64,000 nucleotides of DNA from Deltaproteobacteria bacterium (lineage in GTDB: Bacteria > Desulfobacterota > Desulfobacteria > Desulfobacterales > Desulfosarcinaceae), in contig JAHLLR010000002.1 in the NCBI GenBank assembly GCA_020444075.1, positions 1-64,000 of the forward strand, written 5' to 3'. The position numbers and the translations under genes were made by a program. How positions within the stretch are numbered: position 1 is the stretch's first letter; every line of letters begins with the position of its first letter. Shown here piece after piece: positions 24,934-35,020 of the stretch. The notes under the pieces are model-generated. The model did no database searches. It was not told the origin of the DNA and saw only the letters and a program-made list of their open reading frames with translations.

Positions 24934-25317
24934 TTATTTATGCCGATGTCCTTGCTGGTCAGCAAAAACCTTGAGAATATATTTGGCTGCAAAATCGTCG
25001 CGGGAAAGATACCTCATTCCCATTTCCAGGGCATTGTCCCAGATTTCCTTTACAATCCGGCCTTTGTTCTCATCACTGATGAAATGCCGCTCTTTTTTTT
25101 GCTGAAAAACAACCGTTTCTCCCAAGGCTCCTTTGATCTGCCGGAATTGTTCGTCATCGAGAGGCTTGTTGTCGAACCATTTCTTTTCCACAGGAATAGT
25201 AACATCGACCGTCACGCAGACATACCAGCGATCAGCGGCTATTTTTTTTGACTGGTCCACACACATCAGGGTCAGTCCGTTTTTCAAAGAAAAGGATGAA
25301 GGGGGATGGCACGACAT
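24934..25317 (-). CDS. Small conserved-looking protein of unknown function
   Basis: The 127-residue soluble protein starts MSCHPPSSFSLKNGL, with GAGAGG just upstream of the ATG. A longer in-frame version (start 25395) would overlap the helicase gene and has no better signal. It has no signal peptide or recognised motif; the middle is rich in charged residues. It lies between the EndoQ-UvrD fusion and the HEAT-repeat gene, so it is likely co-transcribed with both. Function unknown. Confidence 0.7.
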   Translation of the reverse strand: MSCHPPSSFSLKNGLTLMCVDQSKKIAADRWYVCVTVDVTIPVEKKWFDNKPLDDEQFRQIKGALGETVVFQQKKERHFISDENKGRIVKEIWDNALEMGMRYLSRDDFAAKYILKVFADQQGHRHK

Positions 25318-25328
25318 GGTAATCCTCT

Positions 25329-28300
25329 CTAAAATAGGGAAAGCTGTTCCTGTGCGGACTTTTCCGTTTTCATGCGGTCTTGACCGGAAAAGCATTTATA
25401 ATTATTTTGAATCTCTTTCACAAATGGGGATAATTGGCGGGGCTGGTTGTGACCGTTAACCCGCCGGTGCCCAGCTTGGGTCAAAAAAAGATGCCATTTG
25501 GCTCGGGTTAGGGCCACGTAAAAAAGCCGCCTTTCTTCTTCCACATCTGCGGGGTGCCTGGTTGATCGGTAAGGGATAAAATCGTCCTCGCATCCGGCGA
25601 TAAACACAACTGGAAATTCCAATCCCTTGGCAGCATGCATGGTGATCAGGGACACTTTTTCCACGCGATGATCATAAGTATCCGTATCCCTGGAAAGGGC
25701 TATCGCCGCCAAAAAAGCGGCGGCATCGCTTTGATAGCCACGGCCCGTTTCAAGTAAATGGGTGCAGCCACGTTCAAACAAATGATCACCATTAAATTTT
25801 TCCCTTAAATCGGCCGTCTTTATTATCATTTCAAGGGCATCCACAACCGAAAGACCTTCACTTTTTTTCTTTAACCGTGAGACGCTTCCTAAAAATGTAA
25901 AAAAATGCTGTTGACGGGTATTTCCCATATGAGGAATCGGCAGCCGGCGCAATTGAACCAGTGCTTCTTCCAGGGATATGGCCTTCTGGTAGGCCCAGTC
26001 TTTAATAATTTCGATGCTTTTACTGGAAACCGACGCGTTGAACACCTTTACTGAGTCTTGAAGATCGGAAAAAAGACTCATTCCGTTCAGCAACTTAAAA
26101 ACCGACAACACCATTCTTACCCCGGGATGACTAAAAACGGTCTTCCGATCGATCACCTGACAGGGGATTCCTGCTTTTTCCAAATATTTCAAAATAACTT
26201 TGCCCTGATTGCGGGTTCTGTATAAAACGGCAAAATCAGCGAAACTCAACGCCTTTTTGTCCAAGGTACCATCCACAGCACCGGAATCCAAAGAAAAAAA
26301 ACCCGTTCCCCCCACCATCCCTTCGATTTTTTTTCCAATAGCAACCGCTTCGGCATTTTCCGTAGCCACTTGCAGAATTTGGATCTGACGATCACCTACC
26401 AGGTCCGAATAAATCGCCTGTCTGCGATCGCTTTCCATCACCTCCGAATTTTTTTTAATCACCTGGGTCGATATTTCCAGAATGGTCCGGGTGGATCGAT
26501 AATTCTTCCTTAATAAAATAGTCTTGAACTCCGGAAAATCCTTCATAAACCATTTAAAACAGGCGACATCCGAACCTCTGAACCCGTATATGGATTGATC
26601 CGGATCGCCAATAATACGTATATTGGCATGATCCCCAGCCAGCAACCTGACGAGCCTATATTGGCCGGCGTTGATATCCTGATATTCGTCGATAAAAATA
26701 TCGCTGAAGCGACCGATATACCTTTTACGAACATCCGGATCCTTTTCCAACAGATAGACCGCTTGAAAAATTAAATCTTCAAAATCCACAAGAGAGTGAA
26801 TTCGCATCAATTGTTCATAGGTTTGATAGCACTGAACGAAAGGTTCCACCCAGTCCTGCGGACAAACTCCGTCCAGCGGATCTTTACTGGAAAGCATCTT
26901 CTGCTTGGCAGAAACAATCCACCCCATCATATCTTCAACACGGATTGCACAACTTTTTTTTGTCAGGCCATTCAATACCATGGAATCACGAACCAACTCT
27001 TTTCGGGAGGCTTCATCGACGACCGACAGTCCCGTATTCGCCATGGCCCGGCTCAAAATGAGGTAACCCAGTGCATGAAAGGTTCCCACGAAGGGGAGTG
27101 ACCGCGATTTTCCCAAGAAGGCTCGAAGCCTTTCTTTCATTTCTTTTGCGGCCTTATTGGTAAACGTCACTGCCAGTATTTTCTCGACATCCACACCCGT
27201 TTGCATCAAACGGGCAATTTTATGGGTCAGTGTACGGGTCTTTCCGGTACCCGGTCCGGCAATAATCATCAAGGGACCGCTGGAATGATCCACGGCTTTT
27301 TGCTGCTCCTCATTCAAGAATATACCGGTTTCAGGCAGTTCATCCGGTTCCGGGATCACGGAACAAACTAAATTTTCGTTAAAATTATATATAGTTGACC
27401 CTTTATCCATTTCGGCCAGCTCAATTTTTTTTTCAAAACCCGAAAAAAGACTTCGCTGCCCAAGTAACCGATCCCTTTCTCTGTCAGAAAAAATTTGAAG
27501 GGTTCCGAAAATGCCATCGTAACCCGGAGAAAAGGAAACGCGGTTTTCCCGCATACGAAAAACAGCTTCGGCAAGCAGCGGCACACCAACGGATTCAATT
27601 ATATCTCTATCCATATAATGAAGAATCGTAAATTCATTGCCTATGCTTTCCAATAGGGCCCGGTACGTTTGTATTACTTTTTTTGATTGGGCCCCGACCC
27701 TGAATATTTCGGCCAAAAGAACATCAAGCGGGATAAGCCGGTAAAAAGGGAATTGCCGATTCGGCCGGGTGCCTTCGGGACGCGTGGCCAGATCTTGAAT
27801 ACGGTGCAGAACCCCAAGTGTCAGGGGTTTGCCACAAACCGGACAAATACCAAGGTGAGATTGGGTCTCCGCAGGAGTAAAACATACCTCGCATTTGCGA
27901 TGCCCATCCACGTGGTATTTTCCCTCTTCAGGAAAAAACTCAAAGGTACCGGCAAATTTTTTTTTATCACCTTTTTCCAGGGCTGATCGAATGGCATGAT
28001 AATTCATTTCCGTTTTAAACAAATTGGCTTCTCTGCCCAATTTTGAAGGTGAATGGGCATCTGAGTTTGAAATCAGGGTAATATCATCCAAGTCAGACAC
28101 CTGCCAGTTCATGGATGGATCCGATGATAGACCCGTTTCTGCGGCAAAAATATGGGAACTTAGATCTTCGAAACATTCCTTGATTGAATTAAAGCCAGAT
28201 TTCGACCCCAACATGGAAAACCAGGGTGTCCAAATATGGGCGGGAACGAGGAAACCATCATCGGATGTCTCTAAAACAATTTCAAGAAGGTCTCTTGCAT

Positions 28301-28736
28301 CGAGGCCGATGATTGGTCTTCCGTCGGATTTGATGTTTCCTATCTTCTCCAAACGGTTGTTGAACAAGCCAACTTTTTCTATATCCGGAAAAAACACAAG
28401 ATTATGGTTTTTTCGGGTTAAACCCTTTTTTTTATATATATTGCTAATTTCACAACTCAACATAAACCGAACAGGCGCCCGGCAGGAGATCGGAACGCTT
28501 TCATCGCAACAACGGGCTATATCCCTTTTAAGTCGAAAGAGACCTGGTTCGGCCGGTTCCAGTTTTTCACTGATTTCGGAGATCCATTCAGGATGAGTAA
28601 AATCTCCGGTTCCCACCACTGTAATTCCCTTCAACTGGGCCCATATGTAAATATTTTCAATATCGAGGTTGCGGGCTGTCGCCCTAGAAAATTTTGAATG
28701 AATGTGAAGATCGGCTATAAAAGAATCGGAAAACAT
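25329..28736 (-). CDS. Endonuclease Q-like PHP nuclease fused to UvrD/Rep-type helicase
   Basis: The protein of 1135 residues has two parts. Residues about 1-440 match endonuclease Q: PHP metal motif DLHIHSKFS (9-17), SNSDAHSP (223-230), and a four-cysteine zinc finger at C282/C285 and C298/C301 followed by GVLHRIQDLA. EndoQ nicks DNA 5' of deaminated bases such as uracil and hypoxanthine. Residues about 470-1135 are a superfamily 1A helicase: Walker A GPGTGKT (494-500), VTFTNKAA, IDEYQD, GDPDQSIYGFRG, and later TMHAAKGLEFP and VALTRAK. The fusion suggests nicking coupled to strand displacement; this is inference. Confidence 0.85.
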   Translation of the reverse strand: MFSDSFIADLHIHSKFSRATARNLDIENIYIWAQLKGITVVGTGDFTHPEWISEISEKLEPAEPGLFRLKRDIARCCDESVPISCRAPVRFMLSCEISNIYKKKGLTRKNHNLVFFPDIEKVGLFNNRLEKIGNIKSDGRPIIGLDARDLLEIVLETSDDGFLVPAHIWTPWFSMLGSKSGFNSIKECFEDLSSHIFAAETGLSSDPSMNWQVSDLDDITLISNSDAHSPSKLGREANLFKTEMNYHAIRSALEKGDKKKFAGTFEFFPEEGKYHVDGHRKCEVCFTPAETQSHLGICPVCGKPLTLGVLHRIQDLATRPEGTRPNRQFPFYRLIPLDVLLAEIFRVGAQSKKVIQTYRALLESIGNEFTILHYMDRDIIESVGVPLLAEAVFRMRENRVSFSPGYDGIFGTLQIFSDRERDRLLGQRSLFSGFEKKIELAEMDKGSTIYNFNENLVCSVIPEPDELPETGIFLNEEQQKAVDHSSGPLMIIAGPGTGKTRTLTHKIARLMQTGVDVEKILAVTFTNKAAKEMKERLRAFLGKSRSLPFVGTFHALGYLILSRAMANTGLSVVDEASRKELVRDSMVLNGLTKKSCAIRVEDMMGWIVSAKQKMLSSKDPLDGVCPQDWVEPFVQCYQTYEQLMRIHSLVDFEDLIFQAVYLLEKDPDVRKRYIGRFSDIFIDEYQDINAGQYRLVRLLAGDHANIRIIGDPDQSIYGFRGSDVACFKWFMKDFPEFKTILLRKNYRSTRTILEISTQVIKKNSEVMESDRRQAIYSDLVGDRQIQILQVATENAEAVAIGKKIEGMVGGTGFFSLDSGAVDGTLDKKALSFADFAVLYRTRNQGKVILKYLEKAGIPCQVIDRKTVFSHPGVRMVLSVFKLLNGMSLFSDLQDSVKVFNASVSSKSIEIIKDWAYQKAISLEEALVQLRRLPIPHMGNTRQQHFFTFLGSVSRLKKKSEGLSVVDALEMIIKTADLREKFNGDHLFERGCTHLLETGRGYQSDAAAFLAAIALSRDTDTYDHRVEKVSLITMHAAKGLEFPVVFIAGCEDDFIPYRSTRHPADVEEERRLFYVALTRAKWHLFLTQAGHRRVNGHNQPRQLSPFVKEIQNNYKCFSGQDRMKTEKSAQEQLSLF

Positions 28737-28996
28737 GATTAATAATAATTTAACCTTTTAAATTTATTTAAAATAATAATAAAGCAGCCGCATCTTGAAA
28801 TATTGAAAACCGTTTGTCAATATTCCCATTAATAATGCATTTTCTATTTATCGTATAAAAATAATTTAATTATTCCCTAATTCGGGTGGATTCTGCCCGG
28901 TTTCCAAAAATAGCTTGAAAAAAATTAGCAAAAAAGCTATATGTATTTGTTTTATTGAAAAATAATATACTTTATTCTTTATATTTAGGACAATTA
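28737..28996. other. AT-rich intergenic region between the helicase and rdgC
   Basis: 260 bp of very AT-rich sequence between divergent genes, with TTTAAA-like tracts. It probably contains both promoters. I found no canonical DnaA boxes (TTATCCACA) in it. Confidence 0.5.
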
Positions 28997-29611
28997 ATGG
29001 GTATTTTATCATCTTCCGCGTCCATCACTCAATATTGCGTTGAAGGAAAAATTTCTGAACCGGTTATGGAAACCGTTGCCAACGGGTTGAAAAGACATGC
29101 CATTGAAGAAATAGACGACGAATCTTCCGATAAGGCCATTGGTTGGACCTGTTTCAACAACCCCTTCAGTTCCGATTTTAATCAGACACCTTTTCTCATC
29201 GGCACCTATTTTGTTTTTTCCATGAGAATAGATAAAAAAACGATTCCTTCGAAAATCATAAAAAAATACTACACCCTTGAAATGAAAAAGCGGTTAGAAA
29301 AAAGCGGACGTGAATTTTTAAGCAAAACCGAAAAAAAAGAAATAAAGGATCATGTCCTTCACGTGTTGAATTTAAGAATTCCGGCAACACCTAATATTTA
29401 TGATCTTATTTGGAGCTACGAGTCCAGCACCCTTTGGTTTTTCTCTAATTTGAAGGGTGCCAATGAAGAATTGGAAACTCTTTTCACCCGCTCATTTAAA
29501 TTAAAATTAATCCGTTTATTTCCCTATAGCATGGCGGTATTGACATCACCCTTGTCCAACTTGGAAAAGGATGCCGTTTCCCAATTCACCCCAACCCGAT
29601 TTACGGAGTAA
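28997..29611 (+). CDS. rdgC: RdgC-like protein, N-terminal half
   Basis: RdgC forms a DNA-encircling ring that limits RecA activity and is linked to replication restart. The 204 residues match the RdgC N-terminal domain: a Trp in IGWTCFNNPF, then IPSKIIKKYYTLEMKKRLEK, SKTEKKEIKDHVLHVLNLR and a closing LIRLFPYS. These parallel LPSPVIK and KKTEKDSLKDEVLHSLL in E. coli RdgC. The start at 28997 follows AGGACAATTA; an upstream ATG at 28955 has no such site. The frame stops where the family normally continues into the domain found in the next gene. Confidence 0.8.
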   Translation: MGILSSSASITQYCVEGKISEPVMETVANGLKRHAIEEIDDESSDKAIGWTCFNNPFSSDFNQTPFLIGTYFVFSMRIDKKTIPSKIIKKYYTLEMKKRLEKSGREFLSKTEKKEIKDHVLHVLNLRIPATPNIYDLIWSYESSTLWFFSNLKGANEELETLFTRSFKLKLIRLFPYSMAVLTSPLSNLEKDAVSQFTPTRFTE

Positions 29612-29621
29612 TTCATAGACC

Positions 29622-30146
29622 ATGCTGGATGTCGCTGTTGCATATAATCGATATAAATTTATTGGAAATGAATTTTTAACATGGTTGTGGTTTACCATCG
29701 ATACCGATCAACATTTTTTTCAAACGGTAGATGGAACAATAACCTCCCTTTATCTCGGAAATAGGATCGTCCTTGAAAATAATATCAATGATACCAGCGA
29801 ATTAATAACAATCAAAGGCGATGATGCCGGTCTTGAAGAAGGTATTTTGTCACTTCGAAAAGGTGCTGTCGTCATTGAAATAAACCTTTGCTATAAAACC
29901 GAAAACCAGGATTGGAAATTCACGCTGAAAGGGGAAAGCCTGAGTTTTTCAAGTTTAAAGGTTCCTGAAACCGGTCCGGTCGAAACCCAGGAAGATATAG
30001 AAGGTATGGTTCTGGAAAAAGCATACCTGTATGAAAAGGCAATTGACCTGGTCAATCGTTTATTTAATATTTTTCTAAAATTAAGATATACTGTGGAATG
30101 GAATCAAAATACCGTTCCCAAAATTAAAAAATGGATACGGGTATAA
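29622..30146 (+). CDS. RdgC-like protein, C-terminal half (separate gene)
   Basis: This 174-residue protein opens with YNRYKFIGNEFLTWLWF, which from memory resembles the start of the C-terminal region of long RdgC-family proteins in related bacteria. It ends with EKAIDLVNRLFNIFLKLR, also typical there. It lies 10 bp downstream of the N-terminal half in another frame, with its own ATG and an in-frame stop just before it. So RdgC appears to be encoded as two polypeptides. Could also be an independent neighbour family. Confidence 0.65.
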   Translation: MLDVAVAYNRYKFIGNEFLTWLWFTIDTDQHFFQTVDGTITSLYLGNRIVLENNINDTSELITIKGDDAGLEEGILSLRKGAVVIEINLCYKTENQDWKFTLKGESLSFSSLKVPETGPVETQEDIEGMVLEKAYLYEKAIDLVNRLFNIFLKLRYTVEWNQNTVPKIKKWIRV

Positions 30147-30240
30147 TCAACGGTTGCCATAACCATAAATATTTTAAAATTTGTCTATAATTTTTCAGTT
30201 ATTAACAATTATATTTTTTCAGACAAAAAAAAGATGTTGT

Positions 30241-30304
30241 TATAAATTCAATTATCCATTTATCAACCATGAAGACTACTTATATTTATATATAAATTCA
30301 ATTA
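30241..30304. repeat. 14-bp direct repeat pair upstream of dnaN
   Basis: TATAAATTCAATTA occurs at 30241-30254 and again at 30291-30304, exactly 50 bp apart, in the AT-rich leader between the rdgC pair and dnaN. A related 11-mer is at 34037-34047, after gyrB. These could be regulator sites or origin-associated repeats. Confidence 0.5.
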
Positions 30305-30371
30305 ATTAGATACTTATATACTTTTTGTCAGCTCTAACTACTATAACAATATATTTAAAAGGAATTATATT

Positions 30372-31487
30372 ATGAAATTTATTATCAACAAATTCCAAAT
30401 TGTTAATGTGCTGGCAAAGGTGCAAGGCCTGACCGGACGGCGAAGCAATCTGGCTATTACTGAAAATGTATTGATTCGGGCTGTTAACAATGGAATTCAT
30501 CTGACTGCCACCGACCTGGAAACCGGATTTGAAGGATTTTATCCGGCCTCCGTCGAAAAAGAAGGCGCAGTAGCTGTCAGCGCAAAAAAAATATTTGAAA
30601 TTCTCAGGGAATTTCCTTCAGAGGATATTCTCATCCACGAAGTTGAAAATAAATGGATCGAGATTGGAAATGAAAAAGTCCAATACCATATCGTAGGTAT
30701 GAATCCGGATGATTTTCCTGAAACACCACATATTATGGATGTTGATTTTTTTTCTATTGAAGCATCTATTTTAGAAAAGATGATAGAACGATCTGTCATT
30801 ATTTCAGCGGCGGGTGATGAAAAACGCGCACACATCAACGGAGTTTTCGTTGAAAGGACCCATCACGATGTTAATCGGCTTAGGTTCGTCTCTACAGATG
30901 GCAGCCGTCTAAATGCGGTTAATCATTTTTATGCGTCTTCGGAAAATATTCCTGCTGGCGAAGGGGTGTTGGTTCCTAAAAAAGGATTGAATGAAGTTGC
31001 TAAATTTTTAGACATCGAAGGAGAGGTTCAAATTGGTATTAAGGATAGTAATTTCATAGTGAAGAAAGAAAAAGAAACGATTATTATTCGTATGCTGGAA
31101 GGAGAATTTCCTAAATATGAAGATATTCTGGCTAAAGGGAATGACCATCTTATCAAACTGGATAAAATTAAATTTGGGAAAATGCTTAAAAGAATGTCTA
31201 TTTTGGCAACGGATAATTATAAAGGAGCTGTTTTCACCTTCGATGACAACAAACTGGTAGTGACTGCCACTAATCCGGATTATGGAGAATCTAAAGAAGA
31301 AACGGAAATCGAATTTACTGGAAAGCCCATCGAAGCAGCCTTTAACCCAAAATTCTTTATGGATACCCTAAGCGTTATAGATGAAGAAAATGTGATTATT
31401 AATATCGTAGATGGTAGTCGTCCCTGTATTGTTGAAGGGGATACAGATAAAACCTTTATCGGCGTCATTATGCCGATGAGAATCTAA
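30372..31487 (+). CDS. dnaN: DNA polymerase III sliding clamp (beta subunit)
   Basis: DnaN is the ring-shaped processivity clamp. The 371-residue protein shows the three-domain beta-clamp pattern: NVLAKVQGLTGRRSNLAITENVLI at the start, DLETGFEG, mid-region FVSTDGSRLNAV, and the C-terminal VIMPMRI (the family ends in MPMR.). AAAAGGAAT precedes the ATG. It is followed 17 bp later by gyrB, without an intervening recF, and no dnaA lies upstream in this window. Confidence 0.97.
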   Translation: MKFIINKFQIVNVLAKVQGLTGRRSNLAITENVLIRAVNNGIHLTATDLETGFEGFYPASVEKEGAVAVSAKKIFEILREFPSEDILIHEVENKWIEIGNEKVQYHIVGMNPDDFPETPHIMDVDFFSIEASILEKMIERSVIISAAGDEKRAHINGVFVERTHHDVNRLRFVSTDGSRLNAVNHFYASSENIPAGEGVLVPKKGLNEVAKFLDIEGEVQIGIKDSNFIVKKEKETIIIRMLEGEFPKYEDILAKGNDHLIKLDKIKFGKMLKRMSILATDNYKGAVFTFDDNKLVVTATNPDYGESKEETEIEFTGKPIEAAFNPKFFMDTLSVIDEENVIINIVDGSRPCIVEGDTDKTFIGVIMPMRI

Positions 31488-31504
31488 ATGAGAATTTAAA
31501 ATAA

Positions 31505-33901
<2,397 letters not shown>

Positions 33902-34225: not shown

Positions 34226-35020
34226 ATGAAAATTCATCGAATAAATGCCAGAGATCTTCCGGATCTGTGGTTTCAAGCGGTACATGATATTCTTGATGAA
34301 GGCAGCCGATTTACAATTGACCGCGGTTCTTACGCCGGCCAAACGCGGCTTGAATACGATTATTTTTGTGGACATGTGAAATTTCCGGGTACTCTGCCAT
34401 TGATACCGGATATTCCTCCATCCTGTGGGATTCCGAATCCGGTTGAGGAGGCTTATATTTTTGGAGGAGAAGGTTACAACCGATCATATATTGAATATTT
34501 GATGACCGGACATAAAGAACCCGGGGAATCCTACACATATGGTGAGCGATTGACGCGGGTTCCTCTTACCGGCGATAAGTTGAGTTGGTGGAAGGAAAAA
34601 AACCGCAACATTATTGACGAAAGGGAAACTGATGGAAAGGTTGTTTTTAAAGAAAATGGTGAGTTATTTCTGAATCAGATCGAATGGATTATTGACACAT
34701 ACAAGCGCTTCGGATCCAGGAATAACCAGATGGTACTTCAAGTAGCGCACCCCTCTGATATAACCTTGCTCGATCCTCCCTGTTTGCGATCGATAGATAC
34801 ACGCATTCAGGATGAGATGCTTCATTTCATTGTTTATTTCAGGTCCTGGGATCTGTGGGGGGGAATGCCGGCAAACCTGGCGGGCATTCAAAACCTAAAA
34901 GAATATATGGCGGGTGAAATTGGCGTCCAGGATGGAGAAATGATTGTTGAAAGCAAGGGTCTTCACCTTTATGGATATGCGGAAGAACTGGCGAAACTTC
35001 GTTGTTTGAAGCAAGCCTGA
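34226..35020 (+). CDS. Thymidylate synthase-like protein (ThyA fold)
   Basis: The protein of 264 residues has the ThyA layout. It contains SYTYGERL (compare G..YG..WR), NQIEWIIDTYKRFGSRNNQ in the region of the arginine pair, DPPCLRSID with a Cys placed as the catalytic nucleophile, FRSWDLWGGMPANLAGI (family QRS.D...G.PFN.A) and a final GLHLYGYAEE (family HIY.NH). These support dUMP methylation to dTMP or a related pyrimidine hydroxymethylase activity. Identity to classical ThyA is low, and the usual Arg-Arg is only SRNN, so the exact reaction is uncertain. Confidence 0.7.
   Translation: MKIHRINARDLPDLWFQAVHDILDEGSRFTIDRGSYAGQTRLEYDYFCGHVKFPGTLPLIPDIPPSCGIPNPVEEAYIFGGEGYNRSYIEYLMTGHKEPGESYTYGERLTRVPLTGDKLSWWKEKNRNIIDERETDGKVVFKENGELFLNQIEWIIDTYKRFGSRNNQMVLQVAHPSDITLLDPPCLRSIDTRIQDEMLHFIVYFRSWDLWGGMPANLAGIQNLKEYMAGEIGVQDGEMIVESKGLHLYGYAEELAKLRCLKQA

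Follow-up and report, generated by a model that had tools for sequence, protein, structure and literature searches.

According to one report (PMC4858679), archaeal Endonuclease Q (EndoQ), a DNA damage enzyme, binds its own sliding clamp, and beta-clamp motifs are mentioned there for bacterial EndoQ. In PfuEndoQ, residues H139, G169 and S171 are described as guarding the pocket for uracil and hypoxanthine (U/Hx), and the roles of these residues and of E76 and H84 are taken here from a review (PMC8307549). EndoQ is credited with a 'narrower distribution' in PMC7776575, and the discovery paper offers two models that differ on the part played by a helicase and by Endonuclease V (EndoV) after the EndoQ nick (PMC4357722). 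In rolling-circle replication, where a nickase works with PcrA, the 3'-OH left by the nick is extended while the 3'-to-5' helicase peels away the 5' strand.

Here we analyse a gene from the window (the whole 64,000-nucleotide stretch of DNA under study) that encodes an EndoQ-like domain and a UvrD-like helicase on one chain, a natural fusion that names a motor for the EndoQ route and suggests its polarity and tether. No description of an EndoQ-helicase fusion was found in the literature searched.

Results

Gene structure and domain content

The open frame at 25329-28736 called by the first-pass annotation was confirmed and lies on the minus strand, where it runs for 1135 residues with zero internal stops; the plus strand of the same interval has many stops. 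Its features are as follows.

25329..28736, minus strand: whole gene, fusion of EndoQ-like nickase (predicted) and UvrD-like helicase, 1135 aa, ATG start, TAG stop
27489..28736, minus strand: EndoQ-like half, residues 1-416, with PHP domain residues H11, H13, E96, H111, H167, D226 and H228 and pocket residues G202 and S204
27834..27902, minus strand: zinc-finger ligands H279, C282, C298 and C301, aligned with Pfu C249, C252, C268 and C271
27444..27458, minus strand: junction peptide QRSLF, residues 427-431
27324..27449, minus strand: disordered linker, residues 430-471, pLDDT below 50 in the predicted model
25380..27323, minus strand: UvrD/PcrA-type SF1A helicase, residues 472-1119
26259..26312, minus strand: clade-specific insert VGGxxFxSxDSG, within residues 809-826, ahead of DFAVLYR
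25332..25346, minus strand: C-terminal clamp-type peptide QLSLF, residues 1131-1135, beside a disordered stretch

The fusion is no assembly artefact, since it recurs in single-contig genomes, for example Desulfonema magnum NZ_CP061800 and genome G161. In the structure prediction that the first-pass annotation had called for (mean pLDDT 86.5, pTM 0.59), both halves fold like solved relatives, PfuEndoQ and UvrD; given the pTM of 0.59, the relative placing of the halves is not interpreted. Homology and predicted folds together support the presence of an EndoQ-type nickase and a complete SF1A helicase on one chain, as that annotation had claimed.

Residues 8-416 match PfuEndoQ over almost its full length (5zb8, E 5.6e-49), with identity at 129 of 374 aligned positions (34%), and residues 4-430 of the model superpose on it with Z 46.5 and rmsd 2.8 over 392 aligned residues; near-full-length homology and a common fold place this half in the EndoQ homologous family. 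The PHP ligands E96, H111 and H167 correspond to Pfu E76, H84 and H139, and H11, H13, D226 and H228 are also present, these remaining metal ligands being presumed from alignment with the PHP motif. Pocket residues G202 and S204 (with H167) correspond to Pfu G169 and S171 (with H139). The loss of PHP metal ligands that the first-pass annotation had held decisive against itself did not appear: every mappable ligand and pocket residue is retained, and the nine positions that could be mapped from PfuEndoQ, metal ligands and pocket residues together, are invariant across 43 fused proteins. The zinc finger, announced as a four-cysteine motif, has its four ligands in place but is by conservation of the pattern His-Cys-Cys-Cys: His279 aligns with Pfu C249 and is conserved in 90% or more of the 43 relatives, and the position of Cys285 is not conserved among relatives. 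Similarly, the proposed match to TIGR00375 is real but, at 159.7 bits for the whole protein, 164.5 for the EndoQ half and 157.4 in the genome search, lies well below the curated cut-off of 326.6 bits, and we therefore treat this half as a separate bacterial subfamily. Nicking 5' of dU, dI and AP sites, and the specificity of this half for them, are predictions from its sequence.

The complete UvrD/Rep-type helicase expected behind the EndoQ half was borne out. Residues 473-1110 match PcrA (1pjr, E 3.1e-85), residues 474-735 match PF00580 (E 1.2e-70), and model residues 469-1119 align with UvrD (Z 45.4, rmsd 3.2, 616 residues). Helicase motifs and the UvrD fold place it in the UvrD/PcrA/Rep SF1A superfamily; K499, D683, E684, R1078 and other helicase residues are invariant in the 43 fused proteins. 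None of the NCBIfam equivalog cut-offs was reached, whether for pcrA (422.7 against 911.2 bits), rep (377.2 against 951.45) or uvrD (354.4 against 1144.45), and, judged by sequence profiles, the helicase half belongs to the superfamily but is none of these three enzymes. By analogy with PcrA and UvrD, it would be a 3'-to-5' motor. The 2B region is of usual size in the window protein and mostly missing in some fused members. The VIA-align list is filled by helicases, and the absence of other families there carries no meaning.

Clamp-type peptides

As in beta-clamp-binding proteins, a QLxLF-type peptide lies at the disordered end of the chain. A C-terminal clamp-type tail is carried by 71 of 73 intact fused proteins, 67 of them in strict form, and Q1131 is an invariant column among 43 fused proteins; ordinary helicases show such a tail in 4 of 68 cases loosely and in none strictly, and random windows match in 4.8% of cases, shuffled tails in 8.4%. 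Where the two genes are adjacent, the tail occurs on all 10 readable helicases and on 9 of 11 EndoQ proteins, and standalone EndoQ has it in 15 of 25 (strict form in 2). The junction motif, present in 49 of 74 fused proteins, is in the window protein (QRSLF) likely a relic of EndoQ's own clamp-binding tail. From these short motifs we infer that the fusion protein contacts the beta clamp. The tails were absent from the first-pass annotation, as were the dedicated helicase clade and the adjacent and unlinked versions described below.

Distribution and history of the fusion

Within the phylum the EndoQ half was detected in 253 of 395 genomes, and at least 584 relatives were confirmed, so that the earlier statement that EndoQ has few bacterial homologues is out of date. 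The survey proposed for Desulfobacterota was too narrow in scope, for the fusion also occurs outside that phylum: among the best 80 named relatives 59 are fused, over about a dozen phyla. A conserved operon was considered and rejected, no neighbour family being common to more than 7 of 54 loci.

A careful EndoQ tree was built from 70 rows, comprising all 25 standalone and all 11 adjacent proteins and 34 fused ones picked for spread, with rows cut by contig ends left out. PfuEndoQ as outgroup had a very long branch (6.07), and the tree was therefore rooted by hand on three standalone rows. All 34 fused rows fall in one clade (98/87), together with 7 standalone and 3 adjacent rows, which we read as one fusion followed by splits and helicase losses; a clean clade of fused proteins was rejected, 9 changes being needed on this tree. 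Standalone EndoQ is nested inside the fused clade. The helicase seems, from this topology, to have been lost repeatedly, and hence would not always be needed.

A helicase clade that accompanies EndoQ

Helicases fused to EndoQ, helicases encoded in the gene beside it and 5 unlinked ones group in a single clade, hereafter the partner helicases, which is separate from ordinary UvrD/PcrA (SH-aLRT 99 and 97). From the 116 rows of the first helicase tree seven near-duplicate fused ones were removed, and 25 of the 80 fused rows went into the second; the fused rows of the first tree, the insert count and the motif survey include one gene twice (L055 = L177). The VGGxxFxSxDSG insert is a mark private to this clade, and six fused helicases miss the pattern. 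Comparison of partner and ordinary HMMs was in-sample for 23 of 24 ordinary and 21 of 89 fused or adjacent helicases; the other 6 adjacent helicases all scored positive, two by just 9 and 18 bits. When EndoQ-negative genomes were queried with the partner profile and the best match per genome was classed, it fell outside the partner clade in 30 of 30, being clearly ordinary in 27 (-130 to -320 bits) and weak and partial in 3 (0 to -23). In 13 of 18 standalone-EndoQ genomes examined, the best match was likewise not a partner helicase.

Co-occurrence with uracil-DNA repair

UDG was matched in 353 of 395 genomes, the window's genome having 2 matches, and EndoQ is therefore usually not the sole uracil enzyme. 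Genomes without UDG carry EndoQ in 21 of 42 cases, no enrichment over 253 of 395. Overall, the idea that EndoQ generally substitutes for an absent UDG is unsupported. Family f50 is the one clean UDG-less case, and one evolutionary unit. Of its 119 genomes 113 have EndoQ (98 of the 99 good ones), mostly in long frames of a size that fits the fusion: by hand count, the best EndoQ frame reaches at least 1035 aa in 103 of 113. Its 16 genomes in the phylum survey all have EndoQ, with the helicase directly behind in the same frame in 15, and searches of these 16 with PF03167 (UDG) and PF04493 (EndoV) returned zero matches.

Discussion

We consider it probable that the fusion, tethered to the sliding clamp, excises deaminated bases (uracil, hypoxanthine) and abasic sites. 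Its EndoQ half would cut the phosphodiester on the 5' side of the lesion, and the nick would have a 3'-OH primer on one side and a 5'-phosphate strand headed by the lesion on the other. Its helicase half, moving 3'-to-5' on the intact strand, would leave the nick behind and displace the damaged strand into a 5' flap; meanwhile the 3'-OH would be extended by a polymerase that shares the beta clamp. Repair would be completed by a flap nuclease (for example the 5' nuclease of Pol I) and ligase. Nickase and motor would be held together with clamp and polymerase at a single site by the linker, which is flexible, and by one or two peptides that bind the clamp. The order of these steps is our inference; the domain identities, residue conservation, dedicated helicase clade, conserved clamp-type tails and distribution are observed. 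The alternative excision machine imagined in the first-pass annotation fits this reading, nicking and unwinding being predicted. Counting against it are the 34% identity of the EndoQ half to PfuEndoQ, its score below the TIGR00375 cut-off, the wide occurrence of UDG, the apparently repeated loss of the helicase, and the few strict tails on standalone EndoQ (2 of 25).

Among other explanations, it is unlikely that the nuclease half has become structure- or nick-specific and no longer reads damaged bases, the fusion serving replication restart or recombination by processing forks and flaps on the clamp. The separate subfamily and low profile score are in keeping with such a change, the clamp-type tails suggest replisome work, and the gene has dnaN (30372-31487) and gyrB in its vicinity in the window, although few of the 54 named loci (5 or 6) have that neighbourhood; however, the U/Hx pocket residues H167, G202 and S204 are invariant in 43 fused proteins, and archaeal EndoQ, a damage enzyme, is likewise clamp-binding (PMC4858679). 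That two independent activities are simply co-translated and mechanistically uncoupled is highly improbable: the helicase clade accompanies EndoQ fused, adjacent and unlinked and was never the best match in the 30 EndoQ-negative genomes, even though the linker is disordered, the pTM of 0.59 gives no fixed interface in the model and secondary helicase losses occur.

We attach very little probability to a double cut, in which EndoQ cleaves 5' and EndoV 3' of hypoxanthine and a helicase removes the short lesion strand. This is one of the two published models and already needs a helicase (PMC4357722). Both enzymes are found in 89 genomes, but 145 EndoQ-positive genomes are without EndoV, and a Fisher test that set aside the 23 genomes whose EndoV matches were weak showed no association (p 0.10, odds ratio 0.69); EndoV was also searched for in the window's genome and gave no match, as in the 16 f50 survey genomes. 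The missing EndoV and lack of association argue against a double cut being what the helicase is for. A role in defence, directed at phages whose DNA is deaminated or modified, is scarcely credible and was rejected. A review raises a possible antiviral role for bacterial EndoQ (PMC8307549), and the helicase half is matched by PADLOC GajB and RT-associated helicase models, but these matches fall on the shared UvrD core. No relatives were found in 50,697 phage records, 72,556 plasmid records and two viral-contig scans, the EndoQ half is present in roughly two thirds of the genomes sampled from the phylum, a Pfam scan of nine window neighbours returned no GajA-like gene (the OLD-family nuclease that stands beside the helicase in Gabija, GajAB) and no defence neighbours, and no neighbour family recurs (at most 7 of 54 loci).

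The clamp-tethered excision reading can be extended. EndoQ-helicase pairing is common across bacteria and would therefore seem to be a self-contained type of DNA repair that has so far gone undescribed. Tentatively, and with somewhat less than even confidence, we propose an undescribed bacterial excision pathway in which an EndoQ subfamily and its own helicase clade, both clamp-tethered, were originally two genes, were fused once in the ancestor of most members, and, in genomes that lack UDG and EndoV (a single family in the phylum, with EndoQ in 98 of 99 good genomes), would act as the first line of repair for uracil and hypoxanthine. EndoQ is recast from a narrowly distributed enzyme to a common bacterial one, the fusion offers one polypeptide from which the whole EndoQ route can be rebuilt, and f50, with neither UDG nor EndoV detectable, is the family for a direct test of its role.

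Compared with Gabija, the fusion shares the UvrD-like core of GajB but has an EndoQ half, has no GajA beside it and was not found on phage or plasmid records. With UvrD, PcrA and Rep it shares helicase motifs, the UvrD fold and a 2B region of usual size, but its helicase is a separate clade with a private VGGxxFxSxDSG insert and a clamp-type tail. With Endonuclease Q (PfuEndoQ, TkoEndoQ, MacEndoQ and Bacillus pumilus EndoQ) it has in common the metal and pocket residues, the zinc-finger position, a clamp-type motif after the domain and, for PfuEndoQ, whole-length homology and fold; it differs as a bacterial subfamily with a His-Cys-Cys-Cys finger and a helicase fused or paired. EndoQ-initiated excision, or nucleotide incision repair, as modelled in PMC4357722, resembles our proposal in the 5' nick and in strand displacement, and differs in that the fusion has motor and nickase on one chain and would not need EndoV. 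Clamp involvement is likewise common to the archaeal route, which uses PCNA where the fusion would use the bacterial beta clamp. The geometry proposed for the fusion is that of a rolling-circle nickase with PcrA, except that the latter is origin-specific, whereas the fusion would be lesion-triggered and is one polypeptide.

Gene structure and domain composition

The first-pass annotation had proposed that endonuclease Q (EndoQ) is fused to a UvrD-type helicase, and the gene proves to be real: on the minus strand a single frame of 1135 codons runs from an ATG at 28736 to a TAG at 25331-25329, the plus strand of the same interval holding many stops. The gene and its neighbours are as follows.

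24934-25317 (-), 127-aa gene
25329-28736 (-), EndoQ-helicase fusion
28955-33901 (+), divergent RdgC-like gene (PF04381, barely above cut-off), unassigned 174-aa gene, dnaN, gyrB
34226-35020 (+), 264-aa protein, match to only a part of PF00303 (thymidylate synthase, E 5e-10), shortly behind gyrB

The 127-aa gene begins 11 bases beyond the fusion's stop with a good ribosome-binding site by eye and has no Pfam match; tblastn places relatives at 8 further loci, and at five (L038, L072, L084, L088, L092) they lie shortly behind the EndoQ gene. Recurrent neighbours across 54 named loci include a DnaN-like family in 6 and a GyrB-like family in 5, both named from sequence starts.

Residues 8-416 match PfuEndoQ (5zb8, E 5.6e-49; 129 of 374 aligned positions identical), and from residue 473 the protein matches PcrA, Rep and UvrD, with helicase motifs in the usual order. 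An AlphaFold2 model from an alignment of 43 fused proteins has a mean pLDDT of 86.5, falling below 50 in the linker (430-471), the insert (812-826) and the tail (1120-1132). Both halves are recovered in the predicted structure: residues 4-430 align to PfuEndoQ with Z 46.5 and rmsd 2.8 over 392 residues, and 469-1119 to DNA-bound UvrD with Z 45.4 and rmsd 3.2 over 616; their mutual placing is unreliable because the pTM is 0.59.

EndoQ active site and subfamily

Four Pfu residues that we presume from the PHP motif to be metal ligands, H8, H10, D193 and H195, correspond in the 5zb8 alignment to H11, H13, D226 and H228 of the window protein. The ligands E76, H84 and H139 map to E96, H111 and H167, and in the pocket G202 and S204 take the places of G169 and S171; these Pfu positions are described in the review PMC8307549. 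The PHP ligands and pocket residues are retained, all nine mapped positions being invariant in 43/43 fused proteins (alignment A3). The finger survives as four conserved ligands, but not as the four cysteines originally read: PfuEndoQ has four cysteines, whereas the pattern here is H279, C282, C298, C301, with histidine in first place (cysteines invariant, H279 in at least 90% of the same 43 proteins).

The expected profile match was likewise found, but the window's EndoQ half scores only 164.5 bits against the cut-off of 326.6 for TIGR00375, the curated NCBIfam EndoQ-related model. This model matches 19/19 EndoQ halves in alignment A1 and, among 14 control genomes, gives matches in three (B. 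subtilis, M. jannaschii, M. acetivorans), above cut-off in two. Because of these scores the window's group is set apart from the curated set, to which it is akin, and in profile terms it constitutes a subfamily of its own. A passage of PMC4357722 describes bacterial homologues, naming Bacillus and Desulfovibrio, as like EndoQ across the entire region. No EndoQ-helicase fusion was described in the titles and abstract openings of the open-access papers searched, nor in passages of PMC6202378, PMC4357722, PMC4858679, PMC8307549, PMC11354406, PMC3820547 and PMC7776575, a scope that bounds its status as 'not described'; the architecture may well be present already in database annotations.

Distribution

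The survey of the window's phylum that the first-pass annotation had suggested found the EndoQ half in 253/395 genomes (216/328 of good quality), with one copy in the window's genome. A wider scan, with one genome per species, gave at least 590 stretches matching the patterns, at least 584 of them encoding a relative. The best 80 of these at least 584 relatives comprise 52 fused genes (one, L077, split into two frames), 7 further fusions truncated at a contig end, 6 genes followed directly by a helicase gene, 9 standalone genes, 3 more standalone ones with short flanks and 3 cut before their class could be read. By record names and NCBI placing, fused members among these 80 span 12 phyla, mostly as metagenome bins: Thermodesulfobacteriota, Myxococcota (in part an old naming of Deltaproteobacteria), Actinomycetota, Chloroflexota, Gemmatimonadota, Planctomycetota, Bacteroidota, Balneolota, Fibrobacterota, Pseudomonadota, Binatota and Latescibacterota. 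No relatives were found in viral contigs, phage records or plasmid records.

The partner helicase

Judged by sequence, the helicase of the fusion is dedicated to EndoQ. When 109 helicases are placed on one tree, the fused and adjacent ones form one clade of 85 rows (SH-aLRT 99; 73 fused, 10 adjacent, 2 from a general genome search), and ordinary UvrD/PcrA-type helicases of the same phylum fall outside it. The two extra members come from genomes G009 and G024, where EndoQ is standalone on another contig, and a search of 12 standalone-EndoQ genomes yielded three further unlinked partners (G104, G133, G346; clade support 97). Across 18 standalone-EndoQ genomes (these 12 and six others, the contig-end-cut G016 excluded) an unlinked partner was the best hit in 5 and not in 13; the six others have no helicase within 1.5 kb either side of EndoQ. 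When 30 EndoQ-negative genomes were queried with the partner profile the best hit was a partner in 0/30, being clearly ordinary in 27 and weak and partial in 3. The clade also carries a private insert, VGG..F.S.DSGR, before the D(F/I)AVLYR strand, whose loose pattern occurs in 73/79 fused, 10/10 adjacent and 5/5 unlinked helicases, and in 1/24 ordinary and 0/15 further ordinary ones, the sole ordinary match (L185) having its GG elsewhere than the clade's place.

The 2B region is shorter than 120 residues in 14/76 fused helicase rows (one gene counted twice) versus 0/13 measurable ordinary helicases. Six partner helicases (L055, L058, L105, L136, L138, L146) lack most of domain 2B. The Rep monomer is said to become active when 2B is lost, and by analogy such partners may be unrestrained motors.

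Elsewhere in the window's genome (L154, contig C45), a gene for a 498-aa OLD-family-like ATPase/nuclease, recognised by eye, overlaps that of a 588-aa UvrD-like helicase, a candidate pair resembling Gabija by eye.

Clamp-type tails and the history of the fusion

The window protein ends in QLSLF. The last 25 residues of 73 fused proteins, contig-cut ones and L077 being dropped, were scored for a loose motif, Q-x-x-(LMIF)-(FLYIM), and a strict one, Q(LM)x(LMF)(FLYI).

Occurrence of the clamp-type motif
Fused proteins: loose 71/73, strict 67/73
Random 25-residue windows, same proteins: loose 4.8%, strict 0.3%
Shuffled tails: loose 8.4%, strict 0.9%
Ordinary helicases: loose 4/68, strict 0/68
Standalone EndoQ: loose 15/25, strict 2
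Adjacent pairs: loose, EndoQ protein 9/11, helicase 10/10 readable

The motif is also retained at the junction of 49/74 fused proteins (QRSLF in the window protein). Because both proteins of adjacent pairs bear tails and fusion junctions keep the motif, the fusion seems to join two formerly clamp-holding proteins. A C-terminal motif lets archaeal EndoQ bind PCNA, and the same authors pointed out beta-clamp motifs in the Bacillus and Desulfovibrio homologues (PMC4858679).

In a careful EndoQ tree of 70 rows, hand-rooted on three standalone rows, one clade (98/87) holds 34/34 fused rows along with 7 standalone and 3 adjacent ones, and only standalone and adjacent rows lie outside it. The simple reading would be that two genes became neighbours and fused once, followed by several re-splits and losses. 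Genus g3 includes a fused (G370), a standalone (G072) and an EndoQ-less genome (G351). Four standalone EndoQ proteins nested among fused ones (L031 of G072, L081, L038, L040) end soon past the EndoQ domain, with neither helicase nor clamp tail, and are apparent losses. In genus g284 of family f50 (G432, G457, G487, G498) the EndoQ frames contain an internal stop and measure about 377-424 aa, those elsewhere in f50 being long and intact; the gene may be decaying there.

Other deamination enzymes and a proposed mechanism

EndoV (PF04493) was matched in 177/395 genomes and uracil-DNA glycosylase (UDG, PF03167) in 353/395, EndoQ being present in 21/42 without UDG. With 23 weak EndoV matches dropped, EndoQ/EndoV classes number 89 (+/+), 145 (+/-), 65 (-/+) and 73 (-/-), with no clear association (p 0.10). 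Family f50 has EndoQ in 113/119 genomes (98/99 good ones), with a best frame of at least 1035 aa, enough for both halves, in 103/113. Its 16 EndoQ genomes in the phylum survey gave no UDG or EndoV match, and no f50 genome is among the UDG- or EndoV-matching ones of the 395; in 15/16 a helicase lies directly behind EndoQ (frames 1087-1387 aa), the 16th being contig-end-cut. In the window's genome UDG was matched twice and EndoV not at all.

After an EndoQ nick the downstream strand carries the lesion at its 5' end. Since SF1A helicases of the UvrD/PcrA/Rep type run 3'-to-5', the motor would have to run on the intact strand, travelling into the downstream duplex and removing the lesion strand, and the freed 3'-OH could be extended by a clamp-bound polymerase. 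PcrA works behind a nick in the same geometry in rolling-circle replication. Figure 10 of PMC4357722 presents two models: the right-hand one, in which EndoV is required, fits poorly here, and the left-hand one proceeds by strand displacement, then flap cutting. By this comparison the fusion would be the left-hand model with a built-in motor.
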